A DNA stretch of 64,000 nucleotides from Amycolatopsis sacchari (GTDB taxonomy: Bacteria > Actinomycetota > Actinomycetes > Mycobacteriales > Pseudonocardiaceae), in contig NZ_FORP01000004.1 in the NCBI RefSeq assembly GCF_900114035.1, positions 1-64,000 on the forward strand. Reading direction: 5' to 3'. A program made the translations under genes and the position numbers. Shown piece by piece: positions 19,340 through 27,087 of the stretch (position 1 is the stretch's first letter; each line of letters starts with the position of its first letter). The notes beneath the pieces were generated by a model, which saw only the letters and a list, made by a program, of their open reading frames with translations, was not told the origin of the DNA and searched no databases.

Positions 19340-20308
19340 TCACGCCAGGCGCTGCCTGCTGAGGAAGTCCCACATGACCGTCGCCGCCGCGGCCTGCTCG
19401 CTGACGGCCGTGGTGTAGGGCGCGGAGGTGTGGCCCGCGGTGGGCCAGTAGTGCGTCAGTCCATTGTAGACGGCCGACGCCAGCTGGGTGCCCGTCGCGC
19501 ACCCGGTCCACGTCGACAGCGTCAGCGGGCCGGTGTGGCTCGTGCTCGGCACGCCCGGGCAGCTGTCGCGTCGCTGCCACTGCGAGACCGCCTGGGCGAG
19601 CGCCGCGGTGGCGCTGGGCGAACCGCGTTCGGTCCGCACGAACGGGTCGGCCGTGCCCGCGGCGAGCAGTGCCGAAACCGGTTCGCCACCGGGGCAGTCC
19701 GCGAGCGGAACGGCCCCGTAGGTCGCGATTCCGGCGAAAACCCCCGGATGTGTGCAAACCTCTTCGAACGACAGTTTCGCCCCATTGCTGTAGCCCACCA
19801 GGTAAACCCGGCGCGGATCGCTCGCGAAGTACTGGGAAGCATCGGAAACCACGGCGGTCACGAACGCGGTGTCGGGCACGCCTTCCCGGCCGGCCACCCC
19901 GCAGCAGCCGTGCCCCGCGTTCCACGACTGGGAGATCCCGGAGGGGTAGACGATGTCGGCCAGCCCGCGCTGGGCGTAGAGCAGGAACCCGGTCCGCGCC
20001 GACTCCTGCTGCGCGGTGATGCCGCGGCCGTGCAGCACGACGAGCAGGGGAAGTCCCTTGTGGTGCAAGGAGGAGCCGACTGCGAGGTACGTCCGCTTCG
20101 TCCCCGCCACGGTGAGGTGGCGCTGCACCGTCGTGGTGGCGCCGGTGACGGCCGGCTGCGCCGGCGCGGTGTGGGCGGCGGGCGTGGGCGGCGCGCTCGC
20201 GGCCGGGGCGGCGCAGGCGGCCAGTGTGACGAACGCGGCGAGGCACGCCACCAACAGTCCTTTTTGTCCAGTTGCACGCGGAAACCGCCGGTAGCGCCGC
20301 CTTTTCAT
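19340..20308 (-). CDS. Lipoprotein esterase, PHB-depolymerase/LpqC-like
   Basis: The 322-residue exported lipoprotein starts at 20308. The lipobox LAAC places the lipid on Cys32. The alpha/beta-hydrolase fold has a nucleophile Ser in GYSNGAK, an Asp in GTADPFV and a late His in WPTAGH. Paired Cys in GHGCCG and TGCATG look like extracellular disulfides. Members hydrolyse polyhydroxybutyrate oligomers or feruloyl/acetyl esters of plant polymers; the exact substrate is unknown. It is divergent from the ComA-containing operon. Confidence 0.82.
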   Translation of the reverse strand: MKRRRYRRFPRATGQKGLLVACLAAFVTLAACAAPAASAPPTPAAHTAPAQPAVTGATTTVQRHLTVAGTKRTYLAVGSSLHHKGLPLLVVLHGRGITAQQESARTGFLLYAQRGLADIVYPSGISQSWNAGHGCCGVAGREGVPDTAFVTAVVSDASQYFASDPRRVYLVGYSNGAKLSFEEVCTHPGVFAGIATYGAVPLADCPGGEPVSALLAAGTADPFVRTERGSPSATAALAQAVSQWQRRDSCPGVPSTSHTGPLTLSTWTGCATGTQLASAVYNGLTHYWPTAGHTSAPYTTAVSEQAAAATVMWDFLSRQRLA

Positions 20309-20400
20309 GACTGCCAGTGTGCCGGAACGACCGCGAAAAAAGCGTGAGCCGCAGGCCGTTCTCAGCTCCCTCTCATCCGCCTGCCAGCGGGCTCCTAGGA

Positions 20401-20424
20401 ACACGGACGAAACTCGCTCCGTGT
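20401..20424. promoter_or_regulatory. Inverted repeat upstream of the ComA-containing operon
   Basis: ACACGGA-N10-TCCGTGT, seven-base perfect arms, 26 bases before the first start codon and next to a possible -10 (CCTAGGAA). Likely operator of the operon or of the divergent esterase; the regulator is unknown. Confidence 0.45.
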
Positions 20425-20450
20425 CCGGCGGAATGCGCGAGGAGGTTTTC

Positions 20451-21935
20451 ATGACGGTGTCCCGCTTGTTGTCCACGCGGGCGGGCGAGCGGCCGGAGGA
20501 GGCCGCGTTCCTGTCCGGCGAGGACGGACGGGCACTGACCTGGCGAGCGGTGGCCGGGCACGCCGCGCGGTGGCACGGCCTCGCCCCGCCCGGCAGCCGG
20601 GTCGGGCTCGTCGTCGCCGACCCGCTGGCCTTCACCGCCGCCTACCTCGGCTGCCTGTCCGCGGGCCTCACCGCGGCCCCCGTGGACCCGCGGCTCACCG
20701 CGGCCGAGCTGTCCGACGTGCTGACGCGGCTGCACGTGGACGTGCTCGCCACCGACGGCGCGGACCCCGTCATCCGGCCCGAGGTCGACACCGTGCTGGT
20801 GGACCTCGCCGGCCCGCGGCGGATCTGGTCCGCCACCACGGCGGCCCGGCCCAGCGACGACGCGGCGCTGCGGCCCGCCGTCCTGCTCACCAGCTCCGGG
20901 ACCACGGGGCGCCCCAAGGGAATTCCGCTCACCGAGTGGCAGCTGCTGCACGCCGCCGCCCGCGTCGCGCGGCACCACGGCTTCGGTCCCGGCGAGCGCG
21001 GGTACACGCCGCTGCCGTTGTTCCACGTCAACGCGCAGGTGATGGGCCTGCTCGCGACCGTGGTCAGCGGGGCGTCGCTGGTGCTGGACCGGCGGTTCGA
21101 CGCGGGCGAGTACTGGGCGCGCGTGGCACGCCACTCCCCCACGTGGCTCAACGCCGTTCCCGCCGTGCTGGCGTCGCTCGCGGCACGCCCGGCCCCGCCC
21201 GCGCACGTCGCCGACCGCATCCGGTTCGCGCGCTCGGCGTCCGCGCCGCTGCCGCCCGCGACCGCGACGGCCTTCGCCGAGCGGACCGGGATCGGCGTGC
21301 TGGAGACCTACGGCATGTCCGAGGCGGCCGGGCAGATCACGGCGAACCCGCTCGACCCGGCGCGGCGCCGGGCCGGGTCGGTGGGCCTGCCGGTCGAGCT
21401 GGACCTCGTCGTCGCCGGGCCGGACGGCCGCGAAGCCGGACCGGGCGAGGAAGGCGAGGTGCTGCTGCGCGGCCCGCAGATCGTGTCGCAATACCTGGAG
21501 CTGACCGAGCGGGGGCCGGAACGGACGCGCGCGGCTCGCGACGACAACGGCTGGCTGCACACCGGCGACGTCGGCATCCGTGACGAGGCCGGGTTCCTGC
21601 GGCTGGCGGGCCGCGCGGACGACGTGATCAACCGGGGCGGCGAGAAGATCTACCCGCAGGAAGTGGAAAACGTGCTGCTCGCGCATCCCGGGGTCGCCGC
21701 GGTGGCGGTGGTCGGCGCACCGCACGAGCGCCTCGGCCAGGTACCGGTCGCGTTCGTGACGACCCGCGAACCGGACGCCGAAGCCCTCAAACGGCAACTG
21801 GGCGCCTGGTGCGAGGAGCGGCTGGCGCGCTACAAGCGGCCCACCGTCGTCGAAGTCACCGACGCGCTGCCGCTCGGGCCCACGGGCAAGGTGCTGCGCC
21901 GGGCCCTGCGCGCGGAGCTGGCGGGCAAGGCGTGA
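20451..21935 (+). CDS. AMP-dependent acyl-CoA synthetase/ligase
   Basis: The 494-residue adenylating enzyme has the P-loop-like TSSGTTGRPKG (147-157), the ETYGMSEAAGQ core motif, the hinge GRADDVINRGGEKIYP and the catalytic Lys in PTGKVLRR. It would activate a carboxylic acid as acyl-AMP and transfer it to CoA or another acceptor. The substrate cannot be read from sequence. A perfect GAGGAGG lies five bases before ATG 20451. The stop overlaps the next gene's start (GTGA), opening a five-gene coupled operon with a phosphosulfolactate synthase. Confidence 0.88.
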   Translation: MTVSRLLSTRAGERPEEAAFLSGEDGRALTWRAVAGHAARWHGLAPPGSRVGLVVADPLAFTAAYLGCLSAGLTAAPVDPRLTAAELSDVLTRLHVDVLATDGADPVIRPEVDTVLVDLAGPRRIWSATTAARPSDDAALRPAVLLTSSGTTGRPKGIPLTEWQLLHAAARVARHHGFGPGERGYTPLPLFHVNAQVMGLLATVVSGASLVLDRRFDAGEYWARVARHSPTWLNAVPAVLASLAARPAPPAHVADRIRFARSASAPLPPATATAFAERTGIGVLETYGMSEAAGQITANPLDPARRRAGSVGLPVELDLVVAGPDGREAGPGEEGEVLLRGPQIVSQYLELTERGPERTRAARDDNGWLHTGDVGIRDEAGFLRLAGRADDVINRGGEKIYPQEVENVLLAHPGVAAVAVVGAPHERLGQVPVAFVTTREPDAEALKRQLGAWCEERLARYKRPTVVEVTDALPLGPTGKVLRRALRAELAGKA

Positions 21936-23080
21936 GCGCCCGCGGCGAGCACCTGCACTACGTCGACCTGATCCGGGTGCTGACCGTCGGCCTGGTCATC
22001 GGCACGCACGTGCTGGCGCTCGCGCCCGTGCCGCCGACGGCGCTCGACGGCGCGCTTGGCATGGTCTTCCACGTCAGCCGCGAGGTGTTCTTCCTGCTCA
22101 CCGCGTTCGTGCTGACCTACAGCACGGGCCGGAAGCGGGTGCGCTGGCCGCGGTTCTGGCGGCGGCGCTACCTGTTCGTCGTGGTGCCGTACGTGGTGTG
22201 GACGGTGCTGTACTTCCTCGCCGACGGCGGCCCGTTCCTCGGCGAGAACCTCGTGCACCAGCTGCTCACCGGCACCGCGCGGTACCACCTGTACTTCCTG
22301 CTCGTCTCGATGCAGATCTACCTGGTGTTCCCGCTGATCAGGGCGCTGCTACGGGCGACGGAGCGGTGGCACGGCGCGCTGCTCGCGGGCGCGGCGGTAT
22401 TCCAGCTGACCTTCACCTACGCCGTGCAGCAGCAGTGGGACCTCGGACCGCTGACGGGCTGGGTCCGCACGCCCGACGCGCTGCTGCCCAGCTACCTCGG
22501 GTACGTCCTCGCGGGCTCGATCGCCGCGTGGCACCGGGACGCGCTCGTGGCCTGGACCCGGCGGCACACGCGGGCGGTGTTCGCCGGGTGCGCGGCCATG
22601 ATCACGCTGAGCGTGGCCGTCTACCTCGTGCACGTGTACGCGCTGGGTCAGCCGCCGTTGCAGGCGAGCGTGGTGTTCCAGCCCGTCGTCGCGGCCGAGA
22701 GCGTGGCGATCGCGTGGGCGTTCCTCGCCGCCGGGCTGCGGTGGCAGGAAAGCGGCCGCTTCGGGGAAAAGCTCGTCACCGCGACGTCGGACGCCTCGTT
22801 CGGCATCTACCTGCTGCACCCGCTGGTCCTGCAGGGCGCGCTGCTCGGCGCAACCTCGATCGGGCTCGTCGGCTTCGCCCAGACGGTGCCGAACGCCGTC
22901 GTGCTCGGCGTGCTCGTGGTCGTCGCGCTGCCCCTGCTCTACCTCGTCTCCGGGGTCGTCACCGCCGCCGCCCGGCGCACCCCGGCGAGCCTCGCGCTCA
23001 CCGGCCGCGCCCGCACGCGGGCGTCCCGGCCCGCCCCCGCCCCCGAACTCGCGCTCGTGAACTCAGGAGGAGCCCGATGA
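21932..23080 (+). CDS. Membrane acyltransferase, OatA/acyltransferase-3 family
   Basis: The 382-residue protein has about ten hydrophobic segments and the acyltransferase-3 N-terminal pattern (HYVDLIRVLTVGLVIGTH with conserved Asp, Arg and His). Such proteins O-acylate surface sugars, lipids or antibiotics using acyl-CoA. GTG start and ATGA overlap with the next gene show strong coupling in the operon. An inferred role is to move the acyl group activated by the upstream ligase onto a small or lipid acceptor at the membrane. Confidence 0.83.
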   Translation: MSARGEHLHYVDLIRVLTVGLVIGTHVLALAPVPPTALDGALGMVFHVSREVFFLLTAFVLTYSTGRKRVRWPRFWRRRYLFVVVPYVVWTVLYFLADGGPFLGENLVHQLLTGTARYHLYFLLVSMQIYLVFPLIRALLRATERWHGALLAGAAVFQLTFTYAVQQQWDLGPLTGWVRTPDALLPSYLGYVLAGSIAAWHRDALVAWTRRHTRAVFAGCAAMITLSVAVYLVHVYALGQPPLQASVVFQPVVAAESVAIAWAFLAAGLRWQESGRFGEKLVTATSDASFGIYLLHPLVLQGALLGATSIGLVGFAQTVPNAVVLGVLVVVALPLLYLVSGVVTAAARRTPASLALTGRARTRASRPAPAPELALVNSGGAR

Positions 23081-23808
23081 GCCGCACCACGATGATGATC
23101 GACACCGGCCTGCCGACGGGACTGTTCACCGACGTGATCGCCAGCCACGGCGAGCTCGTCGGGCTGGTCAAGTTCGGCTGGGGCACGGCGCTCGTCACCA
23201 GGGAGCTCCACCGCAAGATCGCCGTGCTGCGGGAGGCCGGGATCGGCTTCTACTTCGGCGGCACGCTGTTCGAGTGGTACCTCGTGCAGGGCCGGATCGA
23301 CGACTACCTGGCACTCGTCGAGCGCACCGGCGCCACCCACGTCGAGGTGTCCAACGGGACGATTCCCCTTGACCAGCAAGGCAAAGCGGAGTGGGTGCGG
23401 CGGATGTCCCGGTACCGGCCGGTGCTGGCGGAGGTCGGCTACAAGGACGCCGAACGCTCCGCGCGGCTGTCCCCCGCCGACTGGGCGGGTGCGATCCGGG
23501 AGGACCTGGACGCCGGGGCCGAACTGGTGATCACCGAGACGCGCGAGAGCGGCCGCAGCGGGATGGCCAGGCCCGACGGGCACCTGCGTGACGACGTGCT
23601 GCGCGCCGTGCTGGCGCGGATCGACGCCGGGCGGCTGCTGTTCGAGGCCCCCACGAAGGACCTGCAGGTCGAGCTGATCCGCGCGCTCGGGCCCGACGTG
23701 AACCTCGGCAACATCGCGCCCACCGACCTGGTCGGCGTGGAGACCCTGCGGCGCGGGCTGCGCGGCGACACGCTGCTGCAGCTCACCCCCGTCGCCGTGC
23801 CCGCCTGA
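23077..23808 (+). CDS. comA: Phosphosulfolactate synthase, ComA family
   Basis: The 243-residue TIM barrel would join sulfite to phosphoenolpyruvate to give (2R)-phospho-3-sulfolactate. Conserved ComA blocks are present: DTGLP, KFGWGT (32-37), GGTLFEW (61-67), VEVSNG, LAEVGYKD, ETRESG, FEAPTKDLQV, and NLGNIAPTD followed by ETLRRGLRGDT. The archaeal EGRESG appears as ETRESG. AGGAGG lies six bases before the ATG, which overlaps the acyltransferase stop. In methanogens the product goes to coenzyme M and in some Bacillus to spore sulfolactate; no other coenzyme M gene is here, so the end product is probably different. Confidence 0.85.
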   Translation: MSRTTMMIDTGLPTGLFTDVIASHGELVGLVKFGWGTALVTRELHRKIAVLREAGIGFYFGGTLFEWYLVQGRIDDYLALVERTGATHVEVSNGTIPLDQQGKAEWVRRMSRYRPVLAEVGYKDAERSARLSPADWAGAIREDLDAGAELVITETRESGRSGMARPDGHLRDDVLRAVLARIDAGRLLFEAPTKDLQVELIRALGPDVNLGNIAPTDLVGVETLRRGLRGDTLLQLTPVAVPA

Positions 23809-23829
23809 ACCGTCCACAAAGGAGAGAGA

Positions 23830-24228
23830 ATGCGCAACACCCACGACGCCTGCCACATCGCCGTCCCGGCGAAGGACCTCGACGAGGCGGTGGAGTTCTA
23901 CGTCTTCGGCCTCGGCGCGAAGCTCGCCCGCCGCTACGACGACCGCGTCACCTTCGACTTCTTCGGTGACCAGCTCGTGTGCCACCTGTCCGACGACGTG
24001 CCCGAGGAGGCCGTGATGTACCCGCGGCACTTCGGCGTGAGCTTCGCCGCGGCCGAGGACTTCGACCGGCTGCTGCGGCTCGTCGAGCACCGCAAGCTGC
24101 GCGTGCTGGCCGGTCCCGCGCTCCGCTTCGAGGGCACGGCCGAGCAGCACCGCACGATCGCGCTCGCCGACCCGTCGAACAACGTGATCGAGTTCAAGAA
24201 CTACGACGACCCGCGGCTGCAGTTCTGA
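23830..24228 (+). CDS. VOC/glyoxalase-fold protein
   Basis: The 132-residue protein has a single vicinal-oxygen-chelate domain: CHIAVPAKDLDEAVEFYVFGLG at the start and NNVIEF near the end, with His and Glu in metal-ligand positions. VOC enzymes catalyse epimerisation, dioxygenation or isomerisation, or bind ligands. It starts after GGAGAGAG, 21 bp downstream of comA, and its stop shares a base with the next ATG (TGATG). Its job in the operon is unknown; acting on a sulfolactate or sulfopyruvate derivative is one possibility. Confidence 0.78.
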   Translation: MRNTHDACHIAVPAKDLDEAVEFYVFGLGAKLARRYDDRVTFDFFGDQLVCHLSDDVPEEAVMYPRHFGVSFAAAEDFDRLLRLVEHRKLRVLAGPALRFEGTAEQHRTIALADPSNNVIEFKNYDDPRLQF

Positions 24229-24797
24229 TGGCGGTGCTGCACCTGGTGCGCCACGGCGAAAGCGCATGGAACCTCGCCGGGCGCGTGCAGGGACAGTCCG
24301 CCGAGGCCGGGTCGCTCACCGCGCGCGGCCTGCGGCAGGCGGCGGAGACGGCGGAGTTGCTCGTGCGGCGGCCCGTGTCGGCGATCTTCAGCAGCGACCT
24401 GCCCCGCGCCAGGGCCACCGCCGACGTCATCGCCCGGGCACTCGGGCTGCCCGTCCGGGAAGACCCGGCGCTGCGGGAACAGCACCTGGGCCACCTGGAG
24501 GGACGCCGGTTCACCGACCGGCTCGGTGACGGCACCGTGCAGGACGAGATCGACCGCCTGTGGCGCGAACCGTGGCGGCGGCCCGAAGGCGGCGAGAGCA
24601 TCGCGGACCTCTACGAACGCATCCACACGACACTGGACCGCTACGCCGCGCACGACGGCGAACTGGTCCTCGTCGCCCACGGCGGACCCGTCCGCGTGGC
24701 CACCACCAGCGCCGATCCCCGGCTGCGTGAACCCGTGCCGCGCGTCGCTGTCGGTAACGCCTCGGTGACCACTCTGGGCCGCTCGCGCTGTTGCTGA
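24228..24797 (+). CDS. Histidine phosphatase (phosphoglycerate-mutase-like)
   Basis: The 189-residue protein has the RHGE motif (LVRHGESAWN, His9 the phospho-acceptor), SSDLPRARATA and the second catalytic His in LVAHGGP. It would remove a phosphate from a small molecule. In the coenzyme M route the phosphosulfolactate made by ComA is dephosphorylated by ComB, an unrelated phosphatase. This enzyme could do the equivalent step here (inference). It is the last gene of the five-gene operon; 43 bases separate it from the next gene. Confidence 0.85.
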   Translation: MAVLHLVRHGESAWNLAGRVQGQSAEAGSLTARGLRQAAETAELLVRRPVSAIFSSDLPRARATADVIARALGLPVREDPALREQHLGHLEGRRFTDRLGDGTVQDEIDRLWREPWRRPEGGESIADLYERIHTTLDRYAAHDGELVLVAHGGPVRVATTSADPRLREPVPRVAVGNASVTTLGRSRCC

Positions 24798-24840
24798 ACA
24801 GACATCCGCGGGCCGCACCGGCTATGGGAAAGTTACCGCG

Positions 24841-27087
24841 ATGTCGTTCGAGTCCGGAAGCAGAGCATGGCGCCTCCTCGGTGCGGGCGCCGCCGCCGCG
24901 GTGGCCGTCGCCGCGGGGCTGCTCACGAGCGGGGGCACGCTCCCCGGCACCGTCGGGTGGACGATCGAGGTGGTCGCCGCGGCGGTGACCGGCCTGCTGG
25001 TGCTGCTCGCGTTCCGGCCGCCCCGGCGCGCGCCGCGCCCCGCGCCGCCACCGCCGGTGCCGGCGCGGCCGGCGTCCGCCCCGGCGAGGGCGATCCGGAC
25101 CCTGCGGATCGGCGAACTGGACCCGGTGGCGCTCGGCGTCCACCCCGCGTGGCTCCTGCCGGGCGGGGCGCCCCTTCCCCCGTACGTCCCGCGCACCGCC
25201 GACGCCGAACTCGACCGCGCCCTCGCGCGCGGCGGGCTGGTGCTCGTGCAGGGCGACGCGGCGACGGGCAAGACCCGCACCGCGTACGAGGCCGTGCTGC
25301 GCAACGCGGAGCGACTCGGCTGGGAGAACGTGCTCGTGCCCGCCGACGCGGGTGCGCTGCGGGAGCTGGCGCGCGCGCTGCCGCCGAAGACCGTGGTGTG
25401 GCTGGACGACCTCGAGCGCTACCTCGCGACCGACAGCCTCGACGACCGGGTCCTGACGACCCTGTGCACCCGCGGCCCGTCGGACACGGTGATCCTCGCG
25501 ACGCTGCGGTCCCGTGCCAGGGAAGCGCTCGGCGTCGACACCGACGGTCCCGGCGGCCGGGCCCGCCGGGTGCTGACGCGGGTCACGCCGGTGGAACTGG
25601 AGCGAGCGCTGGACCGGACGGAAACCGCCGCGGCACACCGGTTCCAGTCGGATCCGCGGATCGCGGGCGCGTTGCTCGACGAGACGCGACCCGGGTTCGG
25701 CGCGCACATCGCCGCCGGCCCGGAGGCGGTGCGACGCTGGCGGGAGGCCGAGAACGAGCGGGGCGCCGCGCTGGTGAGCGCCGCGGTCGACCTGCGTCGT
25801 GCCGGGTACCTCGAGCCGGTGCCGCTGGACTGGCTGGTGGCGCTGCACCCGCACTACCTGTCGCCGCGGTTCCGCAACCGCCTCGGCGAGCCGGACCTGG
25901 CGGGGGCGCTGGAGTGGGCGACGCAGCCGGTGCGCGGCGCGAGCCCCTGCCTCAAGCCCGCGGGGCCGGACCGCTACGTCGCGTTCGACTACCTCGTGGA
26001 CGCCGCCGAGACCGGCGGTGACGTGCCGGAGCCGGTGTGGCAGCGGCTGCTGGGCGCGCACGCGCTGACGCCGGACCAGACGTTCCGCATCGCCAGGGCG
26101 GCGGTTCGGTTCGGGCGGCTGGCCGAGGCGGCGAACCTGTGGCAGCGACTCGCGCAGCGGGGTGACCAGCACGCGTTGTTCGACCTCGGGTGGGCGGCGC
26201 AGGCGGCCGGGGACCAGGCGGCGGCGGAGCAGTGGTACGTCCGGGCCGCCGAGGCGGGCAACGGCTGGGCGATGTCCAACCTCGGCACGCTCGCCGAAAA
26301 CCGGGGCGAGATGCAGGTCGCCGAGCAGTGGTACCAGCGGGCCGCCGACGCCGGGGACACCACGGGCATGACCAACCTCGGCGGGCTGCTGGCGCAGACG
26401 GGGCGGATCGACCAGGCGCGCGCGGCCTACCAGCGGGCCGCCGCGGCGGGTGATCCGAACGGGCTGCGCAAGGAGGCCGTGCTGGAGCTGCTGCACGGGG
26501 ACCGCAAGCGCGGGGCGGCGTTGCTGCGCAAGGTCGCGCTGTCCGGGGACCCGGCCGCGGTGCGGTTGATGGGGCTGTTGTCGCAGACCGAGGAGAACGC
26601 GCCGCACCGCCCGGACGTGGAGGCGCTGCGCCGGCTGGCGGCCGAGATGGGTGACGGCCAGGCGGCGCTCGACCTCGCGCGGAACCTGTGGAACCAGGGC
26701 GATCTCGACGCGGCGGAGACGTGGTTCCGCCGGGCGGCGGAGACGGAGAACGGCCGGGTCGCGGAGTTCGGGCTGGCGGTGCTGCTGGAGCAGCGGGGGC
26801 GGCCCGGTGACGCCGAGGTGTGGTACCGCCGGTCCGCCGAGCACGGCCTGCCGGAGGCGATGCTGAACCTGGGCACGCTGCTGCAGGACCGCGGTGTGTT
26901 CGCGGAGGCCGAGCGCTGGTACCACCGGGCGCTGGAGGCCGGGCACCTGCCCGCGGAGGTGAACCTGGGGGCGCTGCACTGGCGGCGCGGGAACCTCGCG
27001 GAGGGCCGGGCGTGGTACCAGCGGGCCGCCGACCGCGGGGACGAGCTGGCGAAACAGGCGCTGGAGAACCTCGAACCACGCCGGTGA
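24841..27087 (+). CDS. Membrane-anchored P-loop NTPase with Sel1/TPR repeats
   Basis: The 748-residue protein has two N-terminal hydrophobic segments (about 11-30 and 41-58), a Pro-rich linker (60-85), and a P-loop domain with Walker A GDAATGKT (138-145) and Walker B VVWLDD (185-190). A middle helical region is followed by about eight or nine Sel1/TPR-like repeats from 430 to the end (AAEQWYVRAAEAGN-type units). The layout resembles STAND-like signalling ATPases with a TPR sensor, or a TPR scaffold tied to the membrane. Partner and trigger are unknown. Confidence 0.75.
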   Translation: MSFESGSRAWRLLGAGAAAAVAVAAGLLTSGGTLPGTVGWTIEVVAAAVTGLLVLLAFRPPRRAPRPAPPPPVPARPASAPARAIRTLRIGELDPVALGVHPAWLLPGGAPLPPYVPRTADAELDRALARGGLVLVQGDAATGKTRTAYEAVLRNAERLGWENVLVPADAGALRELARALPPKTVVWLDDLERYLATDSLDDRVLTTLCTRGPSDTVILATLRSRAREALGVDTDGPGGRARRVLTRVTPVELERALDRTETAAAHRFQSDPRIAGALLDETRPGFGAHIAAGPEAVRRWREAENERGAALVSAAVDLRRAGYLEPVPLDWLVALHPHYLSPRFRNRLGEPDLAGALEWATQPVRGASPCLKPAGPDRYVAFDYLVDAAETGGDVPEPVWQRLLGAHALTPDQTFRIARAAVRFGRLAEAANLWQRLAQRGDQHALFDLGWAAQAAGDQAAAEQWYVRAAEAGNGWAMSNLGTLAENRGEMQVAEQWYQRAADAGDTTGMTNLGGLLAQTGRIDQARAAYQRAAAAGDPNGLRKEAVLELLHGDRKRGAALLRKVALSGDPAAVRLMGLLSQTEENAPHRPDVEALRRLAAEMGDGQAALDLARNLWNQGDLDAAETWFRRAAETENGRVAEFGLAVLLEQRGRPGDAEVWYRRSAEHGLPEAMLNLGTLLQDRGVFAEAERWYHRALEAGHLPAEVNLGALHWRRGNLAEGRAWYQRAADRGDELAKQALENLEPRR

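Follow-up and report, generated by a model that had tools for sequence, protein, structure and literature searches.

What does a phosphosulfolactate synthase do in the genome of Amycolatopsis sacchari? The question arises from five tightly packed genes in the window analysed here, the whole stretch from position 1 to 64,000 of contig NZ_FORP01000004.1. They encode an acid-CoA ligase (LIG), a membrane acyltransferase (AT3), a ComA-family phosphosulfolactate synthase (ComA), a small VOC protein (VOC) and a histidine phosphatase (HP). Excerpts of PMC8727900 and PMC2627906 give ComA as the enzyme that opens coenzyme M synthesis, and ComA genes tend to be taken as coenzyme M genes, as is cg2797 of Corynebacterium glutamicum in the latter paper. 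Against this usual reading, the window gene belongs to a separate ComA clade and is part of a conserved gene set that also encodes a ligase and a membrane acyltransferase. Our tentative answer, which we hold somewhat short of probable, is that the operon encodes a dedicated pathway making (R)-3-sulfolactate, and that this compound is used as an acyl group. The original prediction, a pathway through sulfolactate to an acylated sulfonate, is partly supported.

The predicted five-gene coupled operon at 20451-24797 is confirmed from the open reading frames (ORFs), the sequence and Pfam, and all five proteins exceed their Pfam cut-offs (Table 1). LIG and AT3 share the 4-bp overlap GTGA, AT3 and ComA the 4-bp overlap ATGA, and VOC and HP overlap by 1 bp in TGATG; ComA and VOC are separated by 21 bp. 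A scan of 20250-24900 for promoters and terminators found no terminator-like site, and nothing came from the promoter scan.

The absence of a conserved gene order had been named beforehand as a refuting result. This result did not arise. Among the 14 genomes of the genus with a ComA, 13 keep the order LIG-AT3-ComA-VOC: the window genome (7.59 Mb, labelled G000; L and G numbers denote loci and genomes) and 12 others. ComA is found in 14 of 19 genus genomes and 82 of 390 family genomes, with one copy in the window genome. The trait is patchy in the genus, since five of the 19 genomes lack ComA. HP comes next after the four-gene block in 10 of the 14; L028, L031 and L038 lack it. Among the 13 loci, the VOC match in L030 and the LIG match in L035 are each split over two frames. 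At L040, in the 14th genome (G013), the operon including HP was matched in pieces and several frames, with no LIG match; it is either a decaying locus or the result of assembly errors. A second ComA without the operon neighbours occurs in G004 (L026) and G014 (L039). The gene at L039 is distant (30% identity) and sits on a long branch of the ComA tree.

Twenty further ComA loci were taken from other genera and orders. Seven of them have the whole four-gene set together, in two different gene orders, and L121 (a contig end) and L130 have three of the four. L112 and L114 hold ComA alone, yet the same genomes carry the full set at another ComA. In nine of the 20, ComA shows 41-44% identity and LIG, AT3 and VOC are not nearby. 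The use of any ComA as a marker of the pathway was rejected on these nine loci and the two second copies.

A scan with the VOC alignment, one genome per species, gave 432 relatives, and the best 80 of the 432 loci were kept (the 80 VOC loci). Some repeat genomes of the 20 further loci (L132/L113, L158/L120, L207/L024), and the counts and the Fisher value below ignore the relatedness of genomes. The loci stem from Actinomycetota, from Bacillota (Alicyclobacillus, Sulfobacillus and metagenome-assembled genomes, MAGs), and from MAGs labelled Acidobacteriota, Pseudomonadota, Planctomycetota and Sphingobacteriaceae. ComA is present at 60, LIG at 43, AT3 at 36 and all four genes at 32, and VOC adjoins ComA at every one of the 60 shared loci except L177. 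Beyond Actinomycetota the full set occurs in Alicyclobacillus isolates (L139, L145, L148, L174), and in three MAGs: L173 of Bacillota, L182 labelled Pseudomonadota and L176 labelled Acidobacteriota. The label of L176 may be wrong, since its ComA almost equals that of the actinomycete MAG L188.

The genes also tend to be kept where they do not adjoin. The AT3 profile was run on 20 genomes of the 22 loci having ComA-VOC without adjoining LIG or AT3. It matched at E 1e-95 or better in 16, and a LIG relative (44-56% identity) stands beside AT3 in 13; the genomes of L177, L179, L194 and L201, four of the 20 searched, gave no match. In an even sample of 246 genomes drawn from the class, VOC occurs in five, the window genome included. 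ComA is adjacent in all four others, three of which have the complete set in one place (L294, L295 and L296, the last with an esterase); in the remaining one, L297, a short contig carries ComA-VOC-HP. The trait is therefore rare and patchy, with its parts staying together. Chance proximity of the operon genes was rejected on the conservation in the genus, the further loci, the 80 VOC loci and the even sample. A search of the open-access literature by title and abstract start found no description of the gene set.

The claimed membership of the ComA family stands. ComA scores 238.3 bits against PF02679 (cut-off 25.2) and has the conserved lysine: K123 aligns with K137 of 1qwg, which we take to be the catalytic lysine, and it is kept in 21 of 21 rows of one alignment and in 81 of 81 VOC-linked ComAs. 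The best solved match is 1u83 (4.8e-59), presumably the B. subtilis ComA-family protein. The protein is not filed as the archaeal equivalog, because its 210.7 bits against NCBIfam TIGR03849 do not reach the cut-off of 280. A quick tree was built from 162 ComA sequences, with no bootstrap and with some long branches meeting; in it, all 81 VOC-linked ComAs fall in a single branch of 85 (SH-like approximate likelihood ratio test, SH-aLRT, 98). Of the other four members, two lie at contig ends and two are second copies. Pseudonocardiaceae supply the named genomes closest to the window gene in this tree. At L129 (20-993, G972), one of the nine further loci without LIG, AT3 and VOC, an HP-like gene adjoins a ComA outside the VOC-linked clade, at a contig end.

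Could the operon be a remnant or variant of coenzyme M biosynthesis? It resembles the bacterial coenzyme M cluster of Xanthobacter autotrophicus Py2 and Mycolicibacterium chubuense NBB4 in its ComA-family starting enzyme, in keeping with the role of ComA in the excerpts cited above (PMC8727900, PMC2627906). Unlike that cluster, whose partners are lyases and a pyridoxal phosphate (PLP)-type enzyme, the window operon pairs ComA with VOC, LIG and AT3. The ComAs of the Xanthobacter and Mycolicibacterium coenzyme M loci are placed outside the VOC-linked clade. A plasmid collection yielded 17 ComA records, all below 60% identity to the window ComA; the surroundings of two were examined, and these coenzyme M loci (L249, L250) pair ComA with lyase and PLP-type genes. 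Such genes are not among the five operon genes or the neighbouring esterase, the further flanks being partly annotated and the rest of the genome unsearched. The best match to sulfopyruvate decarboxylase beta (TIGR03846) in the window genome is 41.3 bits, below the cut-off of 221.5. The claim that no other coenzyme M gene is present thus holds for the locus and, for TIGR03846, genome-wide; other coenzyme M genes were searched at the locus only. With different neighbours, a separate ComA clade and no decarboxylase over the cut-off, a coenzyme M role is disfavoured, and a remnant or variant of that pathway is hardly credible.

In the Bacillus-type pathway, ComA and ComB yield sulfolactate, and the Bacillus subtilis control contains both families. 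The window system is like it in combining ComA with a phosphatase and in having 1u83 as the best solved match of its ComA. It differs in that the window genome lacks ComB (0 matches to PF04029; 7 of the 19 genus genomes have one) and in the added VOC, ligase, acyltransferase and esterase. HP carries RHG and AHGG motifs, and PF00300 together with RHG places it in branch 1 of the histidine phosphatases. Its best solved matches are a phosphatase that we take to be PhoE-type and a glucosyl-3-phosphoglycerate phosphatase. At the 80 VOC loci, HP occurs at 14, a ComB-type phosphatase at five (L177, L179, L184, L198, L201) and a HAD-type phosphatase at three, and two types never occur together. The ComB-type member of L201 matches Pfam PF04029, and the NCBIfam matches of the L177 member are under the cut-off. 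The alternation of three unrelated phosphatase types, with the window genome lacking ComB, is the strongest support for phosphosulfolactate and then sulfolactate as the products, and makes the predicted phosphatase role plausible. Judged from sequence, the route from phosphoenolpyruvate to sulfolactate through ComA and a phosphatase is likely.

Free sulfolactate could itself be the end product. It accumulates as a solute in Bacillus spores, and the remaining window genes would then be bystanders. The presence of ComA and ComB in the B. subtilis control suits this, as do the five ComB-type loci, where ComA and VOC have no adjoining LIG or AT3; three of these five genomes (G1124, G1125, G1131) show no AT3 match. 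Nevertheless, LIG and AT3 are adjacent or paired at a second site, and LIG is joined to ComA in some open frames (see below). We consider a free solute very unlikely.

In the VOC protein, H9, H52, H67, E105, H107, E121, R34, R39, R66, R88, R99 and K123 are invariant in 48 sequences. The closest solved structure, and a close sequence relative, is PDB 3rri (3.1e-45), a VOC protein of Alicyclobacillus acidocaldarius whose title names no function; FosA, FosB and FosX follow among others. The likeness to the Fos fosfomycin enzymes is one of fold only, since the curated Fos cut-offs are not reached (best FosB-type, 25.5 bits against 295). An exact assignment of metal ligands was dropped, as H67 is shifted relative to the FosB histidine in the alignment. 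The pocket may accommodate a small multiply charged anion.

VOC might convert sulfolactate further, and LIG and AT3 might then act on the resulting compound, or a small molecule might be secreted. VOC is the usual partner of this ComA clade and persists without the VOC-type ComA, which suits this alternative. So does L180 583-8402 (Actinomadura rubrisoli), where LIG-like, ComA and VOC genes adjoin condensation/carrier, MFS and radical SAM genes. However, L180 is one contig, ending just after VOC, and neither it nor its nearest ComA relative L203 shows AT3. A different end product is, in our estimate, unlikely. The L180 locus is in itself a possible natural-product cluster with a sulfonate unit.

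What LIG and AT3 do with sulfolactate is the next question. LIG has AMP-binding and C-terminal domains and the C-terminal lysine K480, presumably in the role of the ANL lysine, and so belongs to the ANL acid-CoA ligases. H192, N194, R261 and K480 are invariant in 43 aligned LIGs, which form one consistent subfamily. Oxalate-CoA ligases are three of the best four solved matches, FadD13 being third-best, and MenE is matched also. In AT3, R15 and H26 form R-X10-H in the first helix, a motif of AT3 proteins in the excerpt of PMC9833829, and PF01757 with this motif assigns the protein to the family. The predicted structure is helical, with a mean predicted local distance difference test (pLDDT) score of 89; the sequence matched no solved structure, and the fold search gave a weak HGSNAT match (E 0.25). 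AT3 proteins are modelled as presenting cytoplasmic acyl-CoA at the outer face (PMC9833829, excerpt), and stand-alone AT3s such as OpgC succinylate glycans (PMC9558356, excerpt). Like OpgC and MdoC in that excerpt, the window AT3 stands alone and would attach an anionic acyl group outside the cytoplasm; unlike theirs, its putative donor is sulfolactyl-CoA from a dedicated ligase.

Gene arrangements elsewhere bear on the donor. LIG and ComA lie in one open frame on four contigs of three MAGs (L175, L190, L192, L193). At L190 the frame also takes in VOC, which may be a sequencing error because the coverage is about 1.3. At L177 1117-12329, a Methyloprofundus MAG, ComA, ATP-grasp, ComB-type and VOC genes are interspersed with PseF-like, NeuC, NeuB-like and nucleotidyltransferase genes. 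A flagellin gene lies downstream, and only NeuC among the sugar genes is over the cut-off. From this one contig, we suggest that sulfolactate is built into a surface sugar there.

The main rival, which is the model of the original prediction, is an acyl-sulfolactate lipid. LIG would make a fatty or other acyl-CoA, AT3 would esterify the sulfolactate hydroxyl to give an amphiphile or a small molecule, and the esterase would recycle it. The gene set is compatible with this. In NCBIfam, LIG scores best against models of fatty-acid ligases, FadD13 is among the best solved matches, and AT3 proteins can take a non-sugar acceptor, as TmaT acetylates a mycolate in the excerpt of PMC9558356. Three points suit a sulfolactyl donor better, though they are not decisive: the joined LIG-ComA frames, the nonulosonate and flagellin setting of the ComA-ComB-VOC set at L177, and, from the excerpted AT3 literature, the usual location of AT3 acceptors outside the cytoplasm. 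An acyl-sulfolactate is rather unlikely, though it ranks first among the rivals. We favour the sulfolactyl donor because of the joined frames, AT3 biology and the L177 setting, and also because the nearest solved relatives of LIG are oxalate-CoA ligases; we infer that sulfolactate is the acyl group and not the acceptor.

For sulfolactate as an acyl group, the following path is proposed. ComA most probably joins sulfite and phosphoenolpyruvate to phosphosulfolactate, as strongly expected from its family. HP would strip the phosphate, as a ComB or HAD phosphatase probably does elsewhere. VOC, which resembles the Fos enzymes in fold and has numerous invariant His, Glu and Arg residues, may act on a small C3 anion or a derivative, for instance in setting the stereochemistry. 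The next three steps are hypothetical. LIG would activate the carboxylate to sulfolactyl-CoA. Outside the membrane, AT3 would pass the sulfolactyl group on, with a glycan or an envelope lipid as the probable acceptor, giving an anionic decoration comparable to succinylation. The esterase might take off or remodel the sulfolactyl group.

Several observations weigh against this path. The best NCBIfam models of LIG, none over the cut-off, are for fatty-acid ligases, N194 sits where oxalate ligases have His, and the LIG substrate cannot be told from sequence. No glycan-synthesis gene was noticed among the flanking ORFs, which are partly annotated. The Methyloprofundus ComA of L177 has a long branch in the tree and is not part of the VOC-linked clade. 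At 58 of the 80 VOC loci none of the HP, ComB-type and HAD-type phosphatases is present. HP is missing from three genomes of the genus, two of which (G001, G014) have no ComB either. Twenty of the 80 VOC loci have no ComA. A search of 28 VOC genomes, these 20 and eight with ComA at the VOC locus, found ComA in 22; the six without it are all among the 20 (L151, L171, L191, L205, L210, L211), several being possibly incomplete MAGs. For the remaining 14 of the 20, the ComAs placed in the tree fall outside the VOC-linked clade, which slightly weakens our reading. LIG-AT3-VOC is kept at four of the 20 ComA-less loci (L151, L171, L186, L191) and HP also at two, L171 and L191. VOC may therefore be independent of this ComA, and the substrate of HP may be a different one.

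If sulfolactate is indeed passed on as an acyl group, the operon would represent a new anionic surface modification and a natural source of sulfolactate; in the rival lipid view, it would make a new sulfonolipid. VOC proteins related to 3rri would also gain a role. A broader and more speculative possibility is that ComA, besides feeding coenzyme M synthesis and yielding free sulfolactate, has a third role in nature. Phosphoenolpyruvate and sulfite would lead through sulfolactyl-CoA to a sulfolactylated glycan or lipid outside the membrane, giving a sulfonate-charged surface in more than one phylum, with VOC as a new metalloenzyme of C3 sulfonates.

Table 1. Features of the operon region in the window.
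Feature	Positions	Strand	Details
AGGAGG, ribosome-binding-like, before LIG	20440-20445	+	sequence
LIG, AMP-forming acid-CoA ligase	20451-21935	+	494 aa; Pfam AMP-binding 6.6e-57 and AMP-binding_C
AT3, membrane acyltransferase 3	21932-23080	+	GTG start; Pfam PF01757 (Acyl_transf_3) 5.2e-30
ComA, phosphosulfolactate synthase family	23077-23808	+	Pfam PF02679 1.1e-70
VOC, small metalloenzyme-like protein, 132 aa	23830-24228	+	Glyoxalase/VOC PF00903 1.7e-12
HP, histidine phosphatase, candidate phosphosulfolactate phosphatase	24228-24797	+	His_Phos_1 PF00300 4.3e-42
Lipoprotein-type esterase (Esterase_PHB), divergent from operon	19340-20308	-	Pfam PF10503 5.6e-9 over 19340-20305

The esterase gene lies outside the coordinates of the original prediction and is a probable sixth member of the operon. 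Its ATG is just upstream of the Pfam-matched stretch, and it has a lipobox-like motif, LAAC. It adjoins the operon in 11 of the 12 genus loci with the four-gene block, the window not counted; L030 is without it. It is kept even at loci that share none of the other window flanks tested (L028, L029, L032), and also in another genus (L024). Among the 80 VOC loci, a member of one of three esterase groups, a PHB type and two GDSL types, accompanies 15 of the 36 loci that have both LIG and AT3 but a single one of the remaining 44 (Fisher 9e-6), a truncated contig that retains an end of LIG. The PHB-type member L115 has no Pfam match, and in one GDSL group two of the three members score below the cut-off. 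Most of these esterases are probably secreted, signal sequences having been judged by eye in a few.

Ten VOC loci from Sulfobacillus and Bacillota MAGs (L135, L136, L138, L140-L142, L144, L147, L149, L150) have VOC without an adjacent ComA. A gene of the D-2-hydroxyacid dehydrogenase group lies nearby upstream, and ComA is found elsewhere in each genome. The names of several carrier organisms hint at acidic habitats.

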